From: Mytilus galloprovincialis
Taxonomy: Eukaryota > Mollusca > Bivalvia > Mytilida > Mytilidae
DNA length: 64,000 nucleotides
Assembly (NCBI RefSeq): GCF_965363235.1
Contig: NC_134841.1
Span: 38,097,440-38,161,439, forward strand
Direction: 5' to 3'
In this document: piece after piece, positions 1 to 20,344 of the stretch
Layout of the letters: each line of letters opens with the position of its first letter
Position numbering within the stretch: position 1 is the first letter of the stretch
Made by a program: the position numbers and the translations under genes
Notes under the pieces: model-generated
The model's database searches: none
What the model was told of the DNA's origin: nothing
What the model saw: only the letters and a program-made list of their open reading frames with translations

Positions 1-556
1 CAATAACTCCTTAAGGGGTCGACTGGCAATTTTGGTCATGTTGACTTATTTGTAGGTCTTACTCTGCTGAACATTATTGCTGTTTACAGTTTATCTCTAT
101 CTATAATAGTATTCAAGATAATAACCAAAAACTGCAAAATTTCCTTAAAATAACCATTTCAGGGGCAGCAACCCAACAACAGGTTATCCGATTCGTCTGA
201 AAATTTCAGGGCAGATAGATCTTCACCTGATAAACAATTTTAACCCACGTCAGATTTGCTCTAAATGCTTTGGTTTTTGAGTTATAAGCCAAAAACTGCA
301 TTTTACCCCTATGTTCTATTTTTAGCCATGGCGGCCATCTTGGTTGGTTTGACGGGTCACGCCACACATTTTTTAAACTAGATATCCCAAGGATGATTGT
401 GGCCAAGTTTGGTAGAATTTGGCCCAGTAGTTTCAGAGGAGAAGATTTTTGTAAAAGTTTACAGACGACGGACGACGGACGACGGACGCAGGACGACGGA
501 CGACGGACGCCAAGTGATGAGAAAAGCTCACTTGACCTTTCAGGTCAGGTGAGCTA
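1..556 (-). repeat. Helitron-like non-coding repeat, copy 1 (cut by window edge)
   Basis: This copy matches the 31470-34555 element in reversed orientation, including the phrases around 'agcaaatctgac' and 'tggcggccatcttggttgg'. A GACGGAC microsatellite precedes a terminal hairpin (stem TTGACCT/AGGTCAGG) and the end GTGAGCTAA. Nothing coding is visible. The Helitron-like label is inferred from the 3' hairpin plus CTAA end. Confidence 0.6.
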
Positions 557-580
557 ATAATACAAGACTAACAAAGTCCA

Positions 581-960
581 GAGGCTCCTGACTTGGGATA
601 GGCCCAAAAAGGCGACTGGGTTAAACATTTTTTTGAGATGTCAACCCCCCCCCCCCCTATACCTTTAGCCAATAAAGAAAAGTAAACACTTAACAATAAG
701 TACAGTAAAATTCAGTTCAAGAGAAGTCTGAGTCCGATGTCAGAAGAGGTAACAAAAGATAATAAACAAATTGACATAAAAACATAAATAACAACAGACT
801 ACTACTGACATGCCAGCTCCAGACCTCAATCAAACTGATTGAAAGATTATGTCTATCAGGCACAATCCCTCACGTTCACAAGGCTTTGAAAAAAATGAAG
901 AAGTCACCTGGACACCAGCTTATGCATAACAATCTGCAAAACTACAAAACATGATCTGTT
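581..960. repeat. Dispersed mollusc repeat fragment
   Basis: This stretch resembles 50400-50630: both carry a 'ccaaatccagacctcaat'-like phrase, a short 'gggtaaac' block and a 'cctgaattggg'-like start. It contains a C-tract near 646-657. No reading frame is convincing. The missing 3' exons of POLR3C were not found here. Confidence 0.4.
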
Positions 961-1119
961 ATTTGATCTGTTTTGGTGTTTCATACTGCTGCATGTGTTT
1001 TGTTTTAGCTAAAGATTCTTCAAACACTAATGTGATGAATATATATGACAGTATTTCACTCAAGGAAGCGACTCTTTTAATTTCAAAGTTGTATTCTTAA
1101 GTGATATCTATAAGTGCAG

Positions 1120-1401
1120 ATTTTCTGCACACTCTAACTGTATACATTGTTTGTTTCTCCACACTCTAACTGTATACATTGTTTGTTTCTGCACACTCTA
1201 ACTGTATACATTGTTTGTTTCTGCACACTCTAACTGTATACATTGTTTGTTTCTCCACACTCTAACTGTATACATTGTTTGTTTCTGCACACTCTAACTG
1301 TATACATTGTTTGTTTCTGCACACTCTAACTGTATACATTGTTTGTTTCTCCACACTCTAACTGTATACATTGTTTGTTTCTGCACACTCTAACTGTATA
1401 C
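1120..1401. repeat. 32-bp minisatellite, about nine copies
   Basis: The unit begins TCTGCACACTCTAACTG and ends CATTGTTTGTT. Copies differ mainly at one base (TCTG versus TCTC), in the order G-C-G-G-C-G-G-C-G. That order implies a 96-bp higher-order unit repeated three times. Confidence 0.9.
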
Positions 1402-1784
1402 AATGTTTATGTTTGTATTTATGTTTGAGATTTACACGTTCTATTCTGTTTCTTGTTTATGTCAACACCACAATTTTTACAATTGTTTTCCTGTGATTTT
1501 AAGACTTTTAAAGCGTTCAAGAATCATTTACAAGCATCTTCAATTTCTAAGTGATGTTGAAAATACCGTAAACAATCACACACCCTTTAAAATAACTGGT
1601 GTTTTACTACATATATTCAACAAGTAAGAAAAGTTTTCCTAAAATCGACAGGTGCAGAAAATTTACCAGTGCTAACTTTACAAGGCAAATTACAGTAAAT
1701 TGACATTAGGCAGAACTCAACATTCTATATATTTCTGCACCTTAGTCAGATTGTCTCTTTTTATAGTGTTTATAAAGGTAAATC

Positions 1785-1987
1785 TGCAATTTACCCCTTA
1801 TGATCTATTTTTAGCCATGCTGGTCTGCAGGCAAGGTCATTGGAGAGATTTTAAAAACAAGATAACATAATGATGATTGTAGCCAAATAGTTTCAAAGAA
1901 GATTTTTGTAATTTAACAGAAGATTTACAATCGATGCCAAGTGATGAAAAAAGCTCACTTGGCCCTGTGGCCCTTTAAGTGAGCTAA
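1785..1987 (+). repeat. Helitron-like repeat, short copy 2
   Basis: A truncated copy of the same family as 1-556, ending 'aagctcacttggccc' + loop + 'agtgagctaa'. The internal part is mostly deleted. It lies just downstream of the last POLR3C exon visible in the window. Confidence 0.6.
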
Positions 1988-2035
1988 AGCGTAAGAAATA
2001 GTTTAGAACATTTAACTCATATCTTATTTATATAC

Positions 2036-5000
2036 CTTATAAGATCTTTCTAGTACATGTTGAGCCAGTTTATGTATATCTACTTTAAACAGATAGAATG
2101 TTCTAGAAGGAGCATGATCTGGAGTTTTCGCTATCTCCTGAAAGTAAGCAATACATTATCATCAACAAATTCATACTTCAATGTGTATGTGAAAATAAAG
2201 TATACAACAAATCGTAACTAATACGAATGCACATTGATATACATATACATGTGCAGTTTTATATCAGGGAATTTTGTCAACTACATAATGATATTTTGTG
2301 AAATGTTATGGAACGAACTGTTACGTAGTAGACACAGAACTAAGAAGGATTGAATTCGCATATTTTCAAGAAATTCTCACTTCTTGCGAGAAGATATTAT
2401 TTTTACATAAAATGTCAATGTATTAAATTATCCTAAATATCAGAAATCTCAAATACTGTTGCAGTTTCTTTCTTTTCTTTTTCAGGCAATTGTATGTAAA
2501 ACTATGTACTGTAAATTCAGACATTATTGTGATGTTTTTTTCTAATAATGTGAAAATTGCATCAGGGTTATAATCGCAATAATTTAAACTAGCAATTTGA
2601 AATTTTTTATATGAATTAAACAGGATTTTTCTCAATATCGCAAAAATTAAAATTGCATTTAAGTCTTAAATGACAAAATAGCAATAATAAATGTATGCAA
2701 TAATTTCTGAATTTACAGTATTTTATGGCAAGCCTAATATTTGCATGCATTTTATAAGCCCAATGACCATATTTTAAGTCAAACTAAATTCACATGGATC
2801 AATGCCTACATTAGCTTTGTAGTTCATCATTGCAAAATTCATGATACATGTATGTGCAATATACGCCCAACTAAAATGTGCGTAAATTCAGCTCTTTGAA
2901 AAGAATTGAAGAGTTTTTTACTGTATGGTCTGTCATTTGCATTTTAAAACAGCACTCATTGTTCAGCTCAGTCAATCTTTTCAGATAGCAGTATGCCAAA
3001 AAACGTGGAGAAGCGATTTTCTTTTAAAAAAAAAATGTTTTCCTCACTTTTGAGGCCCATTTATATTGAGATTGACCCATGATATGATCAGTTGATAAAA
3101 GACTCCTCATTTATGTCAATTGTCGCAATAAAATAGTTCAACTTCAGCATTTTCTTCTTTACGCAGAGTTAAGTTTATAGACATTTATCTATATTTCTAA
3201 TACTAATAGCTTCCTATTTTTCAAACTTACTGAGGTGGTTATAAATTTCTGGGAAAACATATTATACAACAGTTCCTTAGCTTCTTTTGCTGAGATCATT
3301 GCAAAATCTTCAATCTATAATTTAAAAAAAAATATTTATGTACATTAATATTTATATCTAAGTTAAAGCAACTCTAACCAGAAAAAATGTTGCATATTTA
3401 TTGAAAATTCTTATTTTGCCATTAGTCATAAAAATAAATGACCAATTTCTTATTTTTTTTATTTGATGCCATTCATGTAAAACTCATCTTCACTAGTCGA
3501 GGTTTATGATCATACCTTCTACTCTCCAATATCTCATGGATCACAAATGCTGACTTAATCTGCCAAGGGTGAAGAAGATTAAGTATGAACCATTATATTC
3601 ATATATAATTAGCTTGCAAAGATTTATGAAACTCAGTTATAACAATATTTAATTTTTGCAAGGTAATTTTTTCACCAATTTGACCATGTTGACCTTTGCC
3701 TAAATTTTATAATTAAGGAAAACCAGAATCACTTACTAGAAAAAAACATAAAAATAACAAGTTGCAACCAGGTTTTGCGCTTCAAAATCTCAAAATTTCA
3801 CATTTCACTTTTTTAAAGTACATTTACCTGCTTCTGTTCTACATGCTTTTTCAACAATAGCACTCTAAATATTCTTAGACATTTTGATCCAAACCTGCAA
3901 AAGAAGTGATAAGTACATTTTAAATGTAAATGAAGCTTTTGAACAGTGATTTATACAAAGATAATGGAGAATGTATCCATTGATGCACCCTCTTGCATAT
4001 AATGTTATAATTTTATAAAGGGACACATCTCTAGAACAGTAAAAGTAACACTACACAAACTTGTTTAAGTTTTGTGAAGTTTCATAAAATTTGGTTGACA
4101 CAAACTTAAGTTAGAGAATGGGAAATGAAATGAAAAATCAGCATTTTTTCCTTTTGTAATGCAGCTCAACACTAGAATCCACCTAATTTCAAACTTGATC
4201 AGTGGTTTGTGGTAGTTAGCATTGTGTATAAGATTTATAACATTTGGGTGAGGCAAACTTCAGTTTCAAGTACAGGAACGAAAAATTCAGCAATTTTTCT
4301 ATTTGAAAAGTTTTTTTTAAATGTCATTGTTTTCTTAATATTTTTTTGCTTGAAACTTCTATTTTAGGAAAAAAAGTTAAACGTTAGCATATGCAACAAA
4401 AACAGTATCTATTGGCATACATTTAGATTTAATGTCTTATATCATTTTCAAGCACTCATATTATATCTCTTTTTATTCAAAAGTGTATTTTGATATAGTT
4501 TTATATAGTTTTCTATATGATGTATGTTCATTTTGTTTTTTGTTCTTTTAATATTTTTGTTGTGCTATATCTGTTTTTATTGGACATGATTTTCAATGCC
4601 CCCTTGGTATCTTCCCTGCCTATTTTTAACTTACCTTTCTAATACAACTGATTCCAAATGAGAGGTAACTTCTTCCCTGTCTATTTTTAACTTACCTTTC
4701 TAATACAACTGATTCCAAATGAGAGGTAACTTCTTCCCTGTCTATTTTTAACTTACCTTTCTAATACAACTGATTCCAAATGAGAGGTAACTTCTTCCCT
4801 GTCTATTTTTAACTTACCTTTCTAATACAACTGATTCCAAATGAGAGGTAACTTCTTCCCTGTCTATTTTTAACTTACCTTTCTAATACAACTGATTCCA
4901 AATGAGAGGTAGCTATTTGAGTTAGTGCTTTATATATATCTGATTCTGTTAAGGAATAATACTATGCTTTCTTTCATCTGACCAATCTATCATTATATGC

Positions 5001-8000
5001 AATGCCTTGGATGGAAATCAGCCTTATGTGAGTGCATGTATACATGTACATAAATTTGATTGATTTTGGAACACTTCAATGCACAATTAAAGATGAATTT
5101 TGGTCTGTTATATTGATTTTCTTGAACAGCTTAATTGTGAAACAGTTACAAACTTTCAATAGAGATTTTTTCAACTTGAAATATGTTAAAAGATATTCAT
5201 AAGGTCTATTTCTATCAGACGCAACTCGTGTTATAAAATAAATGCTGATTTAATCAATTCATATAGGTTCAAAATAAAGGACAAGGTACGATAAGGCCTG
5301 TTTTTGGCCCCCTTATTTCCTCATATTCTGTTTTGGAAAGCTACTTTTCATGTTAAAATATTCCCTTAGGTTTGAAGTTTGTTTGGCTGAACTTCAAAAC
5401 CATTAATTTTCAGAAAATGGGTGAGGTTAGGGGGGTTAAAGGGCATCTATAATGCCAAAAGAAGGGAAAATTACAATTTTAGGTCATTGTTTCTTAAAAT
5501 CTAATAGGGTGCGCCTACATGACCCAGAGAAAATTATGTCGATTTAGACAGCAAAAACTGTTCTAATGACTTTCGAATATTCTTGGGTCACATTGGCGCA
5601 GGCATATCAAAACAAAAAAAATGTTGTACAAAACACCTGAAGAGTGAATAATAATTACAATATTTGAATAATAACAGAAAGTTTACCCCCCTCACCTCAC
5701 CCAGTTGCTAAAATTAGTGGTTTTGAAGTTCATCCTAACAAACTTCAAGCATTAGGAAATATTTTAACATAATAAGTAGCTTTCAAAACAGAATTTGAAA
5801 ATTGAGAAAATATAACTTTTCACAAAAAAAAAAGGTTATGGATTATGCATAATAGTAGTTTCTGTTTTAATGTAAGGCTTTGTATTGTATTTTAACTCTG
5901 TATTATATTGGTTATGTATTTTAATTGTTCTGTTGAACCAACATCCTTTATGTCACCAAAACAAGACAGTTCCCTAGATTCTGTCTTTGTCAGTGGCATC
6001 AAATTTAATGGGTTTAGTCTGTAACCTAGTAACTAATAAGTGGTTCATCCAGTCAATGTTAAACCAACTCAAATATGATAGTAGGAAACAAGAAACATTT
6101 TGTAGCTATTGTTAAATCAAAGGGAGTAAAATGTTTATTGTTAACATTAATTTTACAAATATTTTACTATCTTTCATCATTCCTACCCTCAATTATGTCC
6201 TTTTTCACATCATATTGATTCGATGTCTATGCTAAGATCAGCAATTCATTGAAGCAATAATTTTTTAACTCTTTAATTTCCTATATGTACACCAGCAATG
6301 CATTTACTTAAAATGCATTTTAAAATACATGTAGAATGGTTTCAGATTGAGATTTGGAATCAGCTATTTCCAAACAAACTATGAAATTTCCATAAAGATC
6401 TCTGATTTTGATTTGTCTTGTCTTTCGAGCCAGAATGACTACAGTTCAAAGACATTTGGAATTCAAAGACAAATTTTAATGAGTTTGCATTATCAGTTCT
6501 ACAAATTCAGACATAACTTTGTCTAATTGCAGTTGACATGTATGTATATAATTATGTTGTATAATAAAATCAGATGGGATTCTGTCAGAAATCTACATAA
6601 AAAAATCACAATCTGTTTCCTGGAGATATCAAACCTTTTACCTTTTCATCACCAACCAATCAACAGAGACCTTTCCCTTAACTAATTTTTGTATCTATTT
6701 TTCAAAAATCAAAGGAGAAACTCTTTGTAAAATTGATATACATTGAATGTCATAAAATGTATCCAAAAAAAAAGTCAAGAATTTGTTACTAACAAAACCT
6801 AGAATTTTTTAATTTTTTTAATCAATTTTTTAAATGTAAAAATTCATTATTGTTGTATGTAAAAATTCATCGTTCTAGTATGTAAACATTCTTTGTTGTT
6901 GTATGTAAAAATTAATCATTCTAGTATGTCAAAATTCATCGTTGTAGTATGAAGAAGATATACGTAGAAAGGATACTGACAACATACATTCCTCCGCCAC
7001 TTTCATCAACTTTACTTATAAAACATGTCTATAAAATAAAAATACATCAAGAATAATTTATAATGATTTAACTGTTCAATTTTGTAATTTCTTTAAAATC
7101 AAGCTAAAGGAAAACTTGTATCCTTTTTAACATCAATCTTCAAAAGATAGCACTCCCAAAAAAAGATGAAAATCTTACTCTGTGTGAATGCTTTATGATT
7201 CATTAACTAATAAAAGAATCTTTAGTATTTAAATACTTCTGTGAAAATAAACTTGTCACTTAATATCCTATAATTAAACATCTTATGACATAATTGAATT
7301 CAACACGACGACATTATGAGTGTACACAAACCACACATTCTAATGATAAACTAAGTCCAAATTTATGTCAGCTTATAAACCTTTGAAGAACTACAAAATC
7401 AGATGTTTAAAAAAATCACAATCCACAAAAATTGGAACCCATGAAAACTAATGAATCCACAGTATATTGTATTGAGTTAACTTACTGAATCTTCACTAAT
7501 CATAGACAAATATATCTGTAGTAACTTCCTTGTAAGTCCAAAGTCCTTTGGTAATGCATTAAATATCTAAATAGATTGTAAATAGGTAATTAGTAAATAT
7601 ACAAATTGTACACATATGAGCGCTCATAAGGCAATGTCCTACTCTTTTAAAGATTATTTATTTGCACTGATTTTCAAATGTCCATTGCCAATATAAACCT
7701 ATGATATAAGCTTCACAAAAATTGTGTGCATGAATTGAACAAATGAGAGCGCTAACTATGCAAATTTTAATTTAATTAATGTTTCCAAGGGGAATAACTA
7801 TTTTAAAAATAATTGATCAGCACTGATTTTCAAGACATAGCTGATTTAACATGTATAATCTATGATATAAGTTTGATTAAAACCTGGCAAGAATTGTACG
7901 GGAGACAGCGCTAACAAAACCTGATTGCAAGGTGACCATCAAGGAAGGAGGCTCTACATTTCAAGGGCATAGGATACAGTTTTGATCCCAAAAAGAAATT

Positions 8001-11000
8001 TTGATGAAAATTTGCATATAGGCTATTTTTTACCTGATTAAATCAAATATGTAATAAAAAATATACCTTCATGTGCTACTTTTTAAGTAAAATGAGGTCG
8101 AAATTACAGACATTTACTCAAAATTCGGATTTGTGGACGTATTTTTCCTTCTGACAGAAATAGGTAACTTTTTTGTTTTTTTAAAAGATAAACACAGAAG
8201 CTGTTTTTTGTTAAATTATTCATAATTTCTCTTTTATATATATATATATATAAGTATCCTATAAATTTATGAAATATTTTGTTTAGAAATAACTAAAATT
8301 TATCAAATGTTCATGAATGAAGAAAAAAATGCAATTTTTTGCTGTATATTTATCAAATTAAAGAAAGATCACTATTGATGTTTTCATGAAAATTGGTACA
8401 AATAATCTTCATACGTAATCAAACCAAAAGTCATTTGAAAAAAAGAGGGGTCCATGAACTTGATTAAAAGTTAAATCAATTTGAATGACAAAAATCAGTT
8501 GAAAAATGCTTCTTTACCCAATATGTCACAGATTGACGTCGTGAAAATAACATTTTACATTAGCAACGTCATTTACCTCCCCTGTAACAGAATCGTATGC
8601 CATTAACCTCCTTGATCTTAAATGTTCTTACCTCAGTTAATGTAACAGCATTAGTAATAGTACTGTATGGGTCAGACTTTAATTCACAGACACGTAGTAA
8701 TGTTCTTACCTCAGTTAATGTAACAGCATTAGTAACAGTACTGTATGGGTCAGACTTTAATTCACAGACACGTAGCAACGTTCTTAATACTTCTCCAGCC
8801 TTCTGTGGAAAAAAAATACAGACCCTAAATAAATATTTATCTTATGTATTCTTAGAGTTTCCTCTTGTTCATTTACTCTTTGTTCCAATTTACACATGAT
8901 TTTTCTTCTGTTTGGACTCTTTAAACTAATTCTTTTTGCTGGAAATGTACAATCCTTCAAGATGAAGCTAATTTTGAGATGAAATGTTTTATTTATTTTT
9001 CTACAGATACTAATTTCTGTTGCTTTGATATATTTTTTTTAGTACAGATCCAACTTAAATTAGTATAACCCCTAATAAAATAAAATTTTAAGACATTTGT
9101 CTACTAGTATCTTTAAAATATGTAAAGCAGCCATCAATAATTGAAAATGTGTGTATTTGTAGAACTTAAAAAGCATGACTGGTACTAACCTTATCTACCT
9201 TACTGGCTATAGCAGTTATCATAAGTTGATCTCTCATGTATTGATGGAACCTGTCAAAGTTTGCTTTCCAGTAGATTCCAGCATCATCAGGTTCCTTAAA
9301 GAAAAAAGAAAATTAAAACTGAGAATACATATCATATTTTAGGTACAAATAAATGATTAATTTCTTTGTCGATAGACATTTCAAGGCCAATCAACATATG
9401 AACAGGACAATCATTATTTTCAGTACAAATAATTAATGATTAACTTTCTTTGTCCATAGAACTTTTCAGGGCTAACCAACCTATGAACACAGAACAATCA
9501 TTAATTAATCTATTTCTATCAGTTTTACTAAAGAAAGAAGGTTCATTTTAAAGATTATGCTACAAGAGATTTTTATTTCAAACACTGATTTGAAAAAAAA
9601 ACCACAACAAAGACTCCCTTCCCTTAAAACAAAATACCATTCCATAAAAAACGCAAGATTTTTTTGGATTGGATTAATGTATCTACTATTTACAATTTTT
9701 CTCAAGTACAAGTAAAATAGCATATTCAAGAAAATTTTTTTCAAGAATCAACCACTATGGATATTGACTCTTGACTAAGTCACATGTAAATCATTATGTA
9801 TTCATTTTTTGTGTATTTCATTATCATATTTATCTTAATTATGAATCTGTGTTTCTGAGACTCTTTTTTAAGCACAATACATACACGACATGTCAACAAC
9901 TAGTTTGTTGTTAAAAAACACATAAGATAAACATATTGCTTATCATTTTTCATAGATTTTTTTGTTAAATACATGTAGTTTTAAAAACTACCTTCTAGAC
10001 ATAATTGCCATTTTGTGTATCTCCTCTTTTAATGTTCATTTTATGATAAGCCAATAAAATACTTGGACAAATTGTGTGCATGGACCTTACTGCACTCTAT
10101 ACAACTTATGATGAACCTTTCAGAGAATAAAATTACCTCTTTTTCCGGTGAATCAAGAATTCTTCTTTTTTTCAATGATACTGGATTATTGTCTGTAGAG
10201 TGTTTTCTTTTTCTACTACCTATTCAAAATAAATCATTGAAACAAATAAAGCAAATACACATACATTTCAAATTTCTATTTTTACTTATATGGCTTATTT
10301 TTGTATTGTACTTTTTCATCATAATGTTTCTTTCATAGATTGGAGCCTCTCTAAGTTATCACATTTCCTAATTAACAGCTGCTCCATGAATGCATGCTAC
10401 GCCTGTCATTTTTTCAAAGAATAAAGTTCAATAACTTTTCAATTTCATATCAGAAATCACGAAAAAAACTAAAGGGAGGTTATCTTAATAGATATAAACC
10501 AGTCATCAAAGTTTCATGATAACTACTCAAAGCCTTCTTCAAAAACTGGAAAATCCCCCCTTTTTTTAATGAATAAAATCATGTAACTCACAATCGTAAA
10601 ATCTAAAATTTATGAAAAGTGAAATGGAGCTTAGGTCAATAGAAATATATATATAAAAAAAAAACACACAAAGTTTCATAAAAACTGCTGAAAGCATTTT
10701 TGAGTTATTGTTTGAAAAACTAGAAAAATTACCCTTTTTTAATAAAAAAAAAACCAGAAAACTCATAACCTTCAAATCTAAAATTTAAAAAAAAACGATA
10801 CAGAGCTCATGTCAATAGATATTAAGTTCCGCAAAGTTTCATGCATTTTTTTAGTAAATGTCCCACATGTTGAAGACAGGTGGACAGACAGAGAGGGACA
10901 GACATACAGGCGGTATACCATAATACATCAGGTAAACAGGCATATAAAAAATGACAATAAGTATTAATGAATATCATTAGGAAATCATCAGGCTTATAGC

Positions 11001-14000
11001 TAACAGAAGATTTGATAATAAGAACAAGAATGTGTCCACAGTACACGGATACCTCTCACTCACTATTGATTTTTTATGTTCAGTGGACCAAAATGCTTAT
11101 TTGGCATTAAAATTAGAAAGATCATATCCTAGGGAACATGTGTACTAAGTTCAAGTTGATTGGACTTCAACTTCATCAAAAACTATCATGACCAAAATGT
11201 TTAACCTGAGGTACAACAGAATGATGAACAGACACACAGAACGAAAAACATAATGCTCCTAAGTGGGGCATAAATATTAATTTAAAAGCTATTTAATAAA
11301 GTCTTCACAAACTTGTAATAGAACTGCATATATTAAGTAAAGTCTACACAAACCTGTGACAGGTATTTTGTATAAATCATCAGTGACGTCTTCACTATTG
11401 CTAGTATTGGTTCTATTTTTACATCTCTGTAAGAAATGTGTATTGACCAGACAGTTAAACTTTTCCTGTACAAATGAGCTGGCTATTTCTGGATGACCTG
11501 TTAAATAAACATAATCATGATAATGAAAAATGTAATTTAGTTGAATGCATCAAGTCATTTATCATCTTTCTATTTTTGCTGGATAGGTTCATCTCATGAC
11601 ATGTACATGAAAAAGTTTAAGTTTTTACAAGTAAATGAAAAGATTAAGATCAACATAAAAATTTCCACAAAAAATTGTATAAAATTGATATTTGTTTTAA
11701 GAATTGAAAATTTTTCCATTTCATATTATCAACCCATTCAACTGCATTGTTGGTCTTGTGGGCTCCACACTCTAGTGTTAGAGATCCTGGGTCTATCCCT
11801 GTTCCACTCGACCAAAAGTGTCCAGGTGAGGTCAGGTGACATGCCTTCCTATATATATATATAGCTAAAGACTCATACTTTTATGAACTACCACACAAAA
11901 TATCCAGATCAACTTTATATATACTCTAATACAACATTTTCAAAGCAGGATTCTTATTTATATATATTTTTTAATAAACTGCTCTAGCTTTTTCAATTAA
12001 GATACCTCAATTAATAAAAAAAAACATTGTTTTTTTTTTAATATTACATTGATATCAGGTTATGAAAATGAATTATTTTAAAGATATTAAACATTATCCA
12101 CAGAGTACCTACCAGCATTAGTTAGGGCTTCATTTAATTTATTAGTAACATTTTTTACAACTTGTGTCATTAACATCTGTCCATTCTGTAAAATCTCCTC
12201 CGCAACAAGTTCTGCCGCATCCCCGTATAATGTCTTAGCACAATATATATAATTTGGAAATCTAATCCTCCTTAATATAATTTCAGAATCTATCAAATAT
12301 TCTAGAGTTCCTTTACTGTCTGTTATGTAATCACAAATATTATGTTGCAGAAGTACACACAAAACTTTCTTTGTCTACAAAATAAAAAAATCAACTACAT
12401 GATAAACATGATAAAAAAGGAAAAACTAAAATTGCTTAAAAATGCTATCCATGAAGTTCCTTAACTCAAGTATATCGCACTATTGTTGCTCAGGGGTAAT
12501 ACTTATATCATGTATATGATTTCATGAATGTTCTGTTATGAATCCATAACAATTTATTTTTTTCGTAGAGTAAAACTGCTCGTGCCTTGTTCAATTTCTT
12601 CCAAAAAATAAAAATAAAACAAACAAGGCCATGCTCTTCATTGCTCTTCTTTGATTGGTAACAAGGTTCTAAAAACACTTAATCCATGGATTGAATGTTG
12701 AATGTGTACTGATTGATTTTTAAGTCTGAGACTTATGATTTTTATTAGTTATTTTTGTCTTTGAACAAGCTTTCAGACACTGTGGGTACTCTCAGATCTG
12801 TACTGTATCTTCTGTGTTTTAACTTTTAAGTGTATTGTGTATACAATGATATATCTGTATATCATGTATATAGATGCAAATTTGAAATAAATAGAAGACA
12901 AGTTTTAAAATATGCTTAAGAAATTAAATAGAAAAGATGGTGTCACAGAACTTATTTTCTAAAGCTTGCTTCAAGTTAAAAAATCTGAATTTCTTTAAAT
13001 TCCTTTATCAAATTTGACTATTTAACAATGTTTAAATTATCTCCCTTAAACAGTCAGGGATATAACTCTATAGGGTTATTACAGGAAAATAACATACATT
13101 TGTTATTGTAGACTAAAAAATCAAAGAACTGTGATAACATATGTATGTTACATGTTTCAAAGGGACAATATACATCATTAGTTTCGTTAAAATTTGTAAA
13201 AGTTCTATTGATATTACTTTTGTCTATATGCATACTTAACTATTGAAAGATATAACAGTTCATAGTTTGCCATTTTGCATAAAACATCTATATGTTATCA
13301 CAGAAAAAATATGCCTGAAATAACTAAAGGGTGTTATCACAGCTTCTCTATATCACTTCAAAGGATTTGCTCAGACATAGATCATGCTTAATTACAATGT
13401 ATTTTAATTTATTGTAAGAAATAATGACCAGAGCATGTAATGAGGTTCTGCGCAAGTTTCTCAGTAATTCCCAAGTGTCTTTTATAATAAGTTACATTCC
13501 TTTAATAACTAAGCCTTGTTATTACAGCTAAGTTTTTCCCTTAATAGCCTCTACTCATTGATTTACCATGGTTAATCAAAAATGAATTACTTTACTTAAG
13601 AAATTAATTATCAAGGCTATGCATTTAGTTTCTGCGTATAGTCTCAAGAGTTCCCTAGAGCCCACTATAAATGAAATAATTTTACAAATAACAAACATAT
13701 GTTTTTACAGATTTAGAATATTTTAGGAAGAAAATCTGTAATAACACACACAAGTTATTTTCTGTAATAACCCTATAGAGTTATATCTCTGACTGTTAAA
13801 GTTCCTAGTTGGGAAAATTGATTCGAACAAACCCAAACAATTGGTGTAGGTTAAAACGGTCTTAATAATGCAATAAATCACCTTATTTTTACTTAATTAT
13901 GTAAAGCAAATAAACAGTCTTATACATTTATTGCCAATCTGTCCCAAATTTTGCAGGCTAATGCAAAGAACTACATGTACACTAATTGTATACATTTACA

Positions 14001-15180
14001 AGGTGCTCATATACATGTAGTTAATGTATATTAAGCCCTTTATCACTGGTTTTTATAATTGTATTTTGATCTAATGTTGTCCAAGGTTATGGGGATTGTT
14101 TCGTACCAACTAACATCATTAACCTGCCACAGCCCTGATTACATGTTCATCCTAGGTCCATTCGCCCTGAGTTTGTTCGCCAATAGAGTCCATTTGGCCT
14201 GGGTTCATAATACCATTTTTTTTTAATAAACTAGTCAGCTTAGAATTAATAAAAGCAATGATGTACAAATTGTTAATCATGAAAAGGATTTCAGTACAAA
14301 TTCATTTATCATGTTTATTATTATACTCTGAGACTACTTTGACACCATCTTCACTAGCCAAGGATTACAATCCACTTCCCTCCTCTTCAGACAAGAGAGA
14401 CATGGGTGGATTGTAACCCTAGGCTAGCAAAGATGACTAAAACACATGTGTTTAAGGTCTCAGTTATACTACATTGTACATTATATATATATATAATAAT
14501 TTACTGAATAGAAATATTTTGTTAACAAATATCAAAACTTTAAAGAAAAATACATTTTATTCATGTACATGTATTCTACTATGCAAATCAAAGGGAAAAT
14601 GATAAATAAGATTCAGCAATACCGAAATATTCAGTGAATTTTACAACGCACGTTATAATTAACATTTAAGTCATATTCTGTTCAAATAATAAACATTATC
14701 AGAGGCATATACATTGTATATATGTCTCTGAAATTATGCAAATTTGCAACTAGACAACAATAAGAAAAAAAGAAAAATCAGGCCAATGGCAAACCGGTAT
14801 TAGGACGAGCAGGTACTTTACAAATTACATGTACTAGAGCGAATACATATGTCAGTGAATCAGGGCAAACAGACCTTTCCCAAGACAGGAGCCTATAATT
14901 CACTGGTTATTGTTTGTTGCTGTTAAGCATAAAATAATTTTGTTTTACCACATCTTTTTATATCATGTTTAAAATCATATTTTATGTAATTATGTTTATA
15001 AAAATATATAGTTTATTTAGATCAGTAATGCACCTGTTCTAGTGAGAATTTGCTCTTTAATGCAAGGTATCTAAGTGCACAGATATTATCCTTCAATAGA
15101 TGACATCCAACTGCTTCTGCTACTTCTCCAAAATTATCTTTTAATATGCTTTTGCATAGGTTACTTTTATTATGTGACAT
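2036..15180 (-). CDS. POLR3C: DNA-directed RNA polymerase III subunit RPC3 (3' part missing)
   Basis: RPC3 is part of the Pol III subcomplex (RPC3/RPC6/RPC7) that opens promoters and recruits TFIIIB; it acts in the nucleus. Twelve exons join in phase: 15034-15180, 12113-12374, 11354-11497, 10137-10219, 9190-9294, 8710-8802, 7486-7566, 6977-7028, 4879-4939, 3828-3894, 3231-3314 and 2036-2137. They encode about 427 residues against ~534 in the human protein. Family hallmarks are clear: KTLYGD at residues 96-101, NTHFLQRC, a lysine/arginine-rich linker (exon 4), GIYWKANFDRF (exon 5), SGGGMYVVNIYKAL (exons 8-9), IEDFAMISAKEAK (exon 11) and KTPDHAPSRTFYL (exon 12). The start ATG at 15178-15180 aligns with the family N-terminus. 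The last ~90 residues should lie beyond the left edge. Two exon ends (exons 6 and 9) are duplicated together with their donors. Confidence 0.93.
2507..2720. mobile_element. MITE with TACTGTAAATTCAGA termini, copy 1
   Basis: The 214-bp element starts TACTGTAAATTCAGACATTAT and ends with its inverse, ATAATTTCTGAATTTACAGTA. The same ends occur at 18734-18933 and 20342-20555. It lies in a POLR3C intron and shows no coding capacity. TA-type ends fit a mariner-like MITE, which is inference. Confidence 0.75.
4611..4911 (-). repeat. 61-bp tandem array of a POLR3C exon end plus splice donor
   Basis: Nearly identical 61-bp units, about 4.9 copies. Each contains the 3' end of POLR3C exon 9 (encoding TSHLESVVLER) and its donor GAAAG|GTAAGT. 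Donor GT dinucleotides fall at 4878, 4817, 4756, 4695 and 4634 (minus-strand G position). Only the first copy is joined to an acceptor (4941-4940). Using a later donor reads TAA immediately after AGG, so those copies are decoy donors or would end the protein. Confidence 0.9.
5280..5835. mobile_element. Foldback (long inverted repeat) element
   Basis: The left arm (about 5321-5445) and right arm (about 5683-5820) are imperfect inverses sharing 'ttgaagtttgtt', 'gaacttcaaaacca' and 'gggtgagg'. The spacer is ~240 bp. It lies in a POLR3C intron and has no reading frame of note. Confidence 0.7.
6840..6955. repeat. Imperfect short tandem repeat
   Basis: Units of roughly 27 bp built on 'gtatgtaaaaattcatcgtt' recur four times with substitutions. 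The array sits only ~20 bp downstream of POLR3C exon 8. Confidence 0.6.
7950..8440. repeat. Dispersed repeat shared with 50690-51010 (opposite orientation)
   Basis: Both copies carry 'ataccttcatgtgctac', an 'aaaatgaggtcgaaatt' block, a 'cggatttgtggac'-like block and 'gataaacacagaagctg', in reversed order relative to each other. A (TA)n tract lies at 8235-8252. It is intronic in POLR3C. Confidence 0.65.
8632..8787 (-). repeat. 78-bp in-frame tandem duplication of a POLR3C exon end with donor
   Basis: Two adjacent 78-bp units (8710-8787 and 8632-8709) differ at only three visible positions. Each encodes RTLLRVCELKSDPYST plus NAVTLTE and ends GAG|GTAAGAAC. Because 78 is divisible by three and the second unit is open, using the distal donor at 8631-8630 would insert 26 residues into RPC3. 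Using the proximal donor at 8709-8708 gives the family-length exon. Confidence 0.9.
9335..9505. repeat. Two-copy tandem duplication, about 85 bp
   Basis: The block from 'aggtacaaataaatgatt' to 'gacaatcatta' is repeated with substitutions from about 9418. It is intronic in POLR3C, just upstream of exon 5. Confidence 0.6.
10430..10925. repeat. Approximate ~140-bp tandem repeat element
   Basis: Three diverged units share 'aaatctaaaatttatgaaaa', 'gagct-aggtcaatagata' and 'aaagtttcatgataac'. The element ends in a 'ggtggacagacagagaggg' stretch. It is intronic in POLR3C and non-coding. Confidence 0.6.
11735..11875 (+). repeat. Possible tRNA-type SINE fragment
   Basis: A 'gatcctgggtctatccc' stretch resembles a degraded Pol III B box, followed by a TA microsatellite at 11851-11862. 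No confident A box or cloverleaf is seen, so it is not called as a tRNA gene. Confidence 0.3.
13047..13798. mobile_element. TIR element (MITE) in POLR3C intron 1
   Basis: The ends are inverse copies of about 45 bp beginning TAAACAGTCAGGGATA and containing CTATAGGGTTATTACAG. The ~750-bp interior has no significant frame. A target duplication is not clear. Confidence 0.75.
14346..14436. repeat. Short inverted repeat
   Basis: The arms 'ttcactagccaaggatta' and the near-inverse of 'taaccctaggctagcaaa' flank a purine/pyrimidine-rich spacer. A diverged half copy lies at about 3488-3530. Confidence 0.5.
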
Positions 15181-19387: not shown

Positions 19388-20344
19388 ATGGGTAAGCGTG
19401 CTTGTTGTGTTAAAGGTTGTCGAAATAATGGAAGAAGATTAGAGAAATGGAAAGAACACTTCTGTGACTTTCATAATTGTAATTTTGGAACATCAAGATG
19501 TATATGTGAACCTCCTTTTACACTTTTCACATTTCCAACTGAACTTAAAAACCCATACAACAGGAGAATCTGGACAAAAAATGTAAACAGAAGTATTGGA
19601 AATAAAATCTGGACCCCTACTCAAGAGTCTCGTATTTGCTCAATACACTTTGTAGATGGATTTCCTAATGACAATAACCCATATCCAACATTGTGTCTTG
19701 GCCACGAATTGGCTACTACACAAACTTTTGCAAGACCACCACCAATTGACCGATCAAATATAGATTCGTCTCCATTGAAAAAGAGAAAACATCAAGATTC
19801 TCCCAGTGACAAAAACCCAAATCCAACATTTTGTCTTGGTCAAGAGTTGCCTTCTACAGTAACTTTTGTTATACTACCACCAATTGACCAATCAAATATA
19901 GATCCAACTCCATTAATAAAGAGGGAACATCAAGATTATCAAGATTCTCCCAGTGACAATAACCCATATTCAACATTGGGTCATGGTCAAGAGTTGGCTA
20001 CTACAGTAACATTTGCTAGACCACAACTAATTGACCGATCAAATATATATCCAACTCCATTAATAAAGAACGAACATCAAGATTATCAAGATTCTCCCAG
20101 TGACAATAACCCATATTCAACATTGGGTCTTGGTCAAGAGTTGGCTACTACAGTAACATTTGCTAGACCACAACTAATTGACCAATCAAATATAGATCCA
20201 ACTCCATTAATAAAGAGGGAACATCAAGATTCTGACAGCACAGATTCATATGACCACAATGACCATGAAGACCATAACTATTCAATTGCCTGTCTCTCTT
20301 GTGAACAGAAATCTTATGCAATAACCCCAATGGTAATGCTATAA
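19388..20344 (+). CDS. THAP-type zinc-finger protein with tandem C-terminal repeats
   Basis: A continuous 318-codon frame opens with a THAP (C2CH) DNA-binding domain: MGKRACCVKGC at 1-11, a Cys/His-rich insert, a 'LFTFPTE' segment with the conserved proline, a conserved Trp in RRIWTKN, and RICSIHFVDG as the C-x2-H end near residue 83-86. THAP proteins bind DNA and are either host regulators or derive from P-element/Kolobok transposases. After the finger come four tandem ~47-residue units with the core NNPYSTLGLGQELATTVTF, then an Asp/His-rich tail and ...ITPMVML-stop. No transposase domain is seen. The stop TAA coincides with the first bases of a MITE, so the native C-terminus may have been cut. 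A donor-like ATG|GTAATG just before the stop leaves open that this is one exon of a longer gene. Confidence 0.75.
   Translation: MGKRACCVKGCRNNGRRLEKWKEHFCDFHNCNFGTSRCICEPPFTLFTFPTELKNPYNRRIWTKNVNRSIGNKIWTPTQESRICSIHFVDGFPNDNNPYPTLCLGHELATTQTFARPPPIDRSNIDSSPLKKRKHQDSPSDKNPNPTFCLGQELPSTVTFVILPPIDQSNIDPTPLIKREHQDYQDSPSDNNPYSTLGHGQELATTVTFARPQLIDRSNIYPTPLIKNEHQDYQDSPSDNNPYSTLGLGQELATTVTFARPQLIDQSNIDPTPLIKREHQDSDSTDSYDHNDHEDHNYSIACLSCEQKSYAITPMVML
19669..20236 (+). repeat. Four tandem coding repeats within the THAP gene
   Basis: The units are about 135-147 bp. Their protein core (D-NNPYSTLGLGQELATT-TF-RP-IDQSNIDPTPLIKREHQ) starts with the NPYPTL-LG tail of the THAP finger itself. The array therefore looks like an expansion of the domain's own C-terminal edge. 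The third and fourth units are nearly identical, indicating recent duplication. Confidence 0.85.

Follow-up and report, generated by a model that had tools for sequence, protein, structure and literature searches.

The first report of mirages in amphioxus is said to be that of Canestro in 2002, and a 2001 paper by Lievers, to go by its title, reportedly linked a 31-bp VNTR in human CBS to reduced CBS activity. Amphioxus mirages, which occur in Adh3 and in the globin genes BflGb6 and BflGb9, are minisatellite-like tandem duplications of exon-intron boundaries. They contain many units with AG/GT signals, are found at either edge of the exon, and are unstable in length; RT-PCR suggests that splicing is regular (PMC3087553). 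The CBS VNTR (c.1444_1467+7) spans, by its name, 24 nt of exon end and 7 nt of intron, including the donor (PMC2630376). The CBS variant 844ins68 is a duplicated intron 7/exon 8 junction of which one copy is strongly favoured, giving normal mRNA; the site is called a “donor” in the text of the source and a 3ʹ splice site in the title of one of its references (PMC2630376). Tandem duplication has also been described as a route to intron gain (the Rogers model), with proto-splice sites AGGT or AGGC, for ATP2A1, fission yeast and potato (PMC4974935, PMC3629103). Human segmental duplications offer a further example: their splicing patterns change where internal tandem repeats lie at exon-intron boundaries (PMC2812944). 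Here, we describe an array at the end of exon 9 of POLR3C in the mussel Mytilus galloprovincialis and compare it with these systems.

The POLR3C exon 9 array

We analysed a 64,000-nt stretch of the genome (the window), whose coordinates are used below. The minus-strand gene in the window is POLR3C (RPC3), an RNA polymerase III gene with 12 coding exons that run from 15180 to 2036; joined together, they form a single open frame, 427 codons long. The part of the protein that was searched matches Pfam families PF22536 (E 5.8e-34) and PF05645 (E 2.9e-17), and the solved RPC3 (PDB 2xub_A, E 3.8e-66). A C-terminal stretch falls outside the window, in a neighbouring locus (L010), and matches RPC3 458–506 (E 4.4e-9). 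A whole-genome protein search found no second copy of POLR3C at E≤1: 13 of the 14 matches fall at the POLR3C locus and the other has an E value of 4.3. Therefore, this assembly (1.385 Gb in 331 contigs, one haplotype) holds a single copy of the gene, which is also open.

The end of exon 9 and its donor lie in an array of five near-identical copies of a 61-bp unit (4608–4912, minus strand; Table 1). TRF places the array at 4610–4911, with a period of 61, 5.0 copies and 99% matches. Each unit comprises 34 nt of the end of exon 9 and 27 nt of intron, including AAAG/GTAAGT. The last 33 of the 34 exonic nt are the same in all five copies, and no letter differs among the five donors between −15 and +15. 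TRF and the copies set in register thus agree with an initial annotation, which had described about five copies of a 61-bp unit holding a 33-base exon end and a GTAAGT donor; its positions for five equal donors were exact. Copies 2–4 are identical, and all differences are confined to the outer edges of the array: the first base of copy 1 is the exon's own C, and copy 5 deviates near its 3ʹ end. This is as expected if the duplication spread from within. A whole-genome search, by a method that skips simple repeats, found the array at E≤0.001 only in POLR3C.

Splicing from donor 1 reads E-R-F-G-S into exon 10 and leaves the frame open. Donors 2–5 lead to TAA directly after LESVVLER, which leaves 57, 118, 179 or 240 nt to the next junction. 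Hence, the earlier claim that only the first donor keeps the frame, and that the others reach TAA, holds for the spliced coding sequence. Among the 12 POLR3C donors in the window, that of exon 9 is predicted to form the most stable U1 duplex (−10.6 kcal/mol). In RNA folding predictions, the mean unpaired fraction is 0.40–0.76 for donor 5, depending on flank length, and 0.24–0.29 for donors 1–4. We considered a donor-hiding stem, formed between TTACCT in the unit and AGGTAA at the donor. Donors 1–4 are about equally closed and donor 5 is more open, so such a stem does not explain a preference for donor 1.

Exon 6 of POLR3C is a sister case (Table 1). Its last base is 8710 or 8632, and the second donor is in frame and would add 26 amino acids. 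Within positions 1–15180, two of five TRF arrays lie over POLR3C donors, which does not differ significantly from random placement (P 0.14). Hence, any claim of enrichment rests on the genome counts given below.

Table 1. Coordinates of the exon-end arrays of POLR3C and of the exons and intron around the exon 9 array
Feature	Position	Strand	Basis or remark
POLR3C exon 9	4879..4939, 61 nt	(-)	spliced with donor 1; in-frame joins to exons 8 and 10; matches RPC3
POLR3C intron 9	3895..4878	(-)	if donor 1 is used; contains array copies 2–5
POLR3C exon 10	3828..3894	(-)	shared acceptor tttgcag/GTTTGG
Unit copy 1, authentic exon end and donor 1 (G of GT at 4878)	4852..4912	(-)	sequence in register
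Unit copy 2, donor 2 (G 4817)	4791..4851	(-)	sequence in register
Unit copy 3, donor 3 (G 4756)	4730..4790	(-)	sequence in register
Unit copy 4, donor 4 (G 4695)	4669..4729	(-)	sequence in register
Unit copy 5, donor 5 (G 4634)	4608..4668	(-)	3ʹ part differs (GGCAGGGAAGATA) at array end
POLR3C exon 6 end and donor GAG/GTAAGA, 78-bp unit, 2.1 copies	8621..8786	(-)	TRF and spliced coding sequence

Some further features of the window were observed. Read on the plus strand, 4608–4912 contains a donor-like antisense site, AGAG/GTAACT, at the starts of units 2–5. Exon 9 has two candidate acceptors 6 nt apart (aacag and aatcag, 4939–4950); the downstream one gives the length of the solved RPC3 and the other gives two additional residues. 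The donor of exon 8 (6834–6976), A/GTATCC, is the weakest of the 12 (U1 duplex −3.3), and a 23-bp minisatellite begins ~25 nt downstream of it. At 19669–20231 there are 147-bp repeats that, read on the plus strand, look coding-like by eye (~49 amino acids per unit) and are possibly the repeat of another gene.

Exon-end arrays elsewhere in the genome

Pairs of the 8-mer AGGTAAGT were counted across the 1.385-Gb genome, with the reversed, composition-matched motif as the control. There are 2405 pairs with starts 61–91 nt apart, versus 842 for the reversed motif, and 1330 versus 515 at 92–122 nt; these counts are inflated by long arrays. Single AGGTAAGT sites are rarer than those of the reversed motif (39,604 versus 72,798), and the pair rate per site is 6.07% versus 1.16%. 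Counted by hand as distinct places on contig C1 up to 86.2 Mb, there are 19 for AGGTAAGT and eight for the control. Rows of pairs occur in four of the eight control places, and TRF, run on two of the other four, found no array at the pair in either. Fisher tests, for which site numbers were scaled from the genome totals, give p 4e-6 for 19 versus 4 and 3e-4 for 19 versus 8; for exon-like arrays alone, the values are 3e-4 (14 versus 4) and 0.007 (14 versus 8). Extrapolation from this one contig gives ~225 exon-end arrays for the AGGTAAGT 8-mer and this spacing range. Pairs of the donor form TGGTAAGT are fewer than those of its reversed motif (1649 versus 2586, by pair counts alone), which counts against a general donor excess.

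We opened 25 places among the matches listed: the 19 on C1 up to 86.2 Mb and six new ones from a second list. In 19 of these 25, an exon-like frame ends at the first donor; no such frame was seen in the other six (L073, L074, L075, L077, L085 and L089). Among the matches listed, 12 of the 19 exon-like arrays outside POLR3C have known-protein matches. The matches are to GDE_C (AGL), Fz, EGF_CA, SNF, PDZ, Ank, RIC1 (E 4e-6, although the model is long and its curated threshold is not reached), ITPR (E 2e-4), PTGR1, MTR4, Dynein_C and TSP_1. The remaining seven (L011, L028, L031, L072, L079, L087 and L090) have no significant protein match. Donor arrays with units of 37–117 bp and from two to tens of copies occur in unrelated genes. 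Judged from copies after the first, there are also units that end in TG/GTAAGT rather than AG, in ABCD1-like and glutaryl-CoA-dehydrogenase-like exons.

In an AGL-like gene (L071 and L040; G000:C1:7066749-7069965), a 78-bp unit that holds the end of an exon with its donor is repeated over ~3.2 kb, roughly 40 copies by length. TAA follows directly after the first donor of this array.

Arrays at acceptors

Motifs for acceptors show no comparable excess: there are 170 pairs of TTTGCAGG versus 149 for the reversed motif (0.48% versus 0.50% per site), and 1204 versus 1188 for TTTACAGG, by pair counts alone. We chose 17 acceptor places by eye among the matches listed, in two rounds of eight and nine. 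An exon-like frame was seen, among those matches, in four of eight in the first round (not in L093, L094, L096 or L097) and in five of nine in the second (not in L102, L107, L108 or L109), with L101 and L103 doubtful. Pfam E1_dh supports the frame at L095.

In five of the nine exon-like acceptor arrays, including the doubtful exon L101, splicing to the preceding acceptor would cause a frameshift. A rule by which the 5ʹ-most site wins at both exon edges, suggested by three of four acceptor arrays being open, was dropped on this ground. Three of eight acceptor arrays are in frame and open; counting L103, perhaps no more than a coding repeat, the figure is four of nine. Against a null of 10%, P is 0.037 or 0.008. 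A partial frame filter on the acceptor side is possible. At either edge of an exon, wherever another choice would break the frame, splicing has to use the copy adjoining the exon body, and this is what exon definition predicts.

Two side observations concern individual acceptor places. L098, L099 and L100 (units of 81, 78 and 87) are all in frame and open, above the 10% null. An 88-bp unit with many repeats, at L096 and at G000:C2:22103626-22105146, reads acceptor-like tttgcag/GATCAGAG...AAAAAG/GTTAGG, and is perhaps a whole tiny exon.

Choice among the donors

Which of the five donors is used? We considered the frame in 21 exon-end arrays: the 19 at the opened places and the two in POLR3C, at exons 6 and 9. 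The frames of seven of the 21 were taken from the open reading frame alone. A later donor breaks the protein, by a stop or a frame shift, in 17 of the 21. It is in frame and open in four (L079, L082, L086 and POLR3C exon 6), of which L082 and L086 were scored by hand, with no stop found. At L087, the first copied unit has a stop, and some of those after it are open. When single duplications were simulated at the 12 POLR3C donors, 13% left the frame both in register and open; on that null, the probability of at least four in 21 is 0.30. The observed number fits this null and gives no sign of a filter for frame. If later donors were commonly used, the protein would be broken at 17 of 21 arrays, which supports a silent array.

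The simplest, though indirect, inference from these sequences is that every donor beyond the first is inert. We consider it likely that the exon 9 array is a young, silent “mirage” minisatellite, in which splicing uses the exon-side donor and removes the remaining copies as part of the intron. As in mirages, the repeat spans an exon-intron boundary, GTAAGT is present in all five units, and several loci carry such repeats. The array would have arisen by tandem duplication across the boundary between exon and donor, which grew into a minisatellite. By exon definition, donor 1, as the one closest to the exon body, would be chosen by the spliceosome for pairing with the exon; copies 2–5 would be removed with the intron, giving normal mRNA. 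The array would then be near neutral, with its copy number free to change by slippage or unequal exchange. The initial annotation had seen here a possible natural test of donor choice by proximity. The array is indeed one of many in the genome that could serve in this way, but the presumed winner is nearest in one sense only: it is closest to the exon body, not to the acceptor.

Variation among the interior copies of nine arrays is broadly, but not wholly, consistent with silence. Variable columns are spread over the donor (8/81), the exon side (18/265) and the intron side (25/242), with p 0.20–1.0. Raw mismatches are fewer on the exon side (32/2383) than on the intron side (59/2154, p 0.0009) or at the donor (23/819, p 0.008). 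A purely silent array does not predict fewer mismatches on the exon side, and the column counts do not show this difference.

An alternative, also raised in the initial annotation, is that later donors are used in part, the resulting TAA isoform is destroyed by nonsense-mediated decay, and copy number thereby tunes, or lowers, RPC3 output. The stops reached from donors 2–5, all upstream of a junction, would be premature, and the title that reportedly ties the CBS 31-bp VNTR to reduced activity concerns a repeat that, by name, also covers an exon end and donor. However, arrays of the same build occur in unrelated genes, their frames are unfiltered, and the donors of interior copies are no better kept than the rest. 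We regard this explanation as unsupported and unlikely; taken as a whole, the interpretation in the initial annotation is partly supported.

A further possibility is that the array heals itself as tandem introns do in the proposals of Rogers and Hellsten: any donor is used, and the GT...AG stretches between copies are then removed to give normal mRNA. Each AAAG/GTAAGT supplies both an AG and a GT, loss of any number of whole 61-nt units would restore the normal junction, and intron gain by such duplications has been described (PMC4974935, PMC3629103). Nonetheless, the exon ends would make poor acceptors. Their mean pyrimidine fraction is 0.43 in 19 arrays, and 0.41 at POLR3C exon 9, versus a mean of 0.70 for 11 real POLR3C acceptors. 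A further AG is present within 20 nt in 12 of those arrays, versus one of the 11 acceptors. Furthermore, the TG/GTAAGT units in the ABCD1-like and GCDH-like exons would close this route there, to judge from the copies after the first. Such a mechanism is very improbable for the exon 9 array.

When equal donors are duplicated in mammalian test genes, the intron-proximal copy is reportedly favoured. By this rule the winner here would be donor 5, which counts against the silent array with donor 1 in use. Donor 5 is also predicted to be the most accessible, and only one haplotype is assembled, such that a harmful allele could be hidden in a heterozygote. However, if the intron-proximal donor won and the assembled haplotype were a rare or damaging allele, a single genome would carry a broken gene at 17 of the 21 arrays, some of them long (the AGL-like array, with its 78-bp unit, covers ~3.2 kb). 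We give this reading equally little credence. In our judgement, the frame evidence is not outweighed by the TGGTAAGT counts, the folding of donor 5, the mammalian rule and the raw mismatches. Least probable of all is an assembly artefact: near-identical short repeats are prone to mis-sizing, but the outer copies have edge-specific differences, units vary between genes, and larger arrays contain internal variants.

Implications and comparison with known systems

On the excess of AGGTAAGT pairs, we tentatively raise, with more doubt than confidence, the idea that strong 5ʹ splice sites are preferred targets of tandem duplication in this animal, with AGGTAAGT arrays ~5-fold above the control per site. 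The acceptor motif, measured likewise, does not exceed its own control; the TGGTAAGT pair counts oppose the idea. If it is correct, hundreds to thousands of introns would start with rows of identical unused donors. This would point either to a mutational hotspot linked to donors or to some advantage of additional U1 sites; the unused donors would be masked by a strict rule that favours the one closest to the exon body.

Choice among identical donors has mostly been addressed with built minigenes. This genome appears to offer a large natural series of unrelated genes in which a donor is repeated from twice to tens of times, sometimes in frame and sometimes not. The donor rule could be settled in this series by ordinary RNA-seq, and long reads could address the effect of copy number. 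The literature searched yielded no molluscan case of mirage-type arrays; nor did we come across a description of them in another invertebrate, or any mention of a donor excess.

The exon 9 array is thus probably a silent POLR3C case of a known kind, to judge from its sequence; it gains weight from how numerous such arrays are in the genome and from the AGGTAAGT excess. It resembles amphioxus mirages in being a tandem boundary duplication with splice signals, in another genome and another gene. It differs in that a genome-wide count with controls is available here, with units of 37–117 bp, and that the arrays are known from sequence alone. The human CBS 31-bp VNTR has the same build by name, and there it is the CBS side that has, by a title, population and enzyme data. 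CBS 844ins68, by contrast, involves the other end of the intron as named, and has two copies. Tandem-duplication intron gain shares the copies with proto-splice sites; here, an existing intron has been enlarged and we infer no new intron. The repeats of human segmental duplications likewise lie at exon-intron boundaries, but in recent human paralogues.
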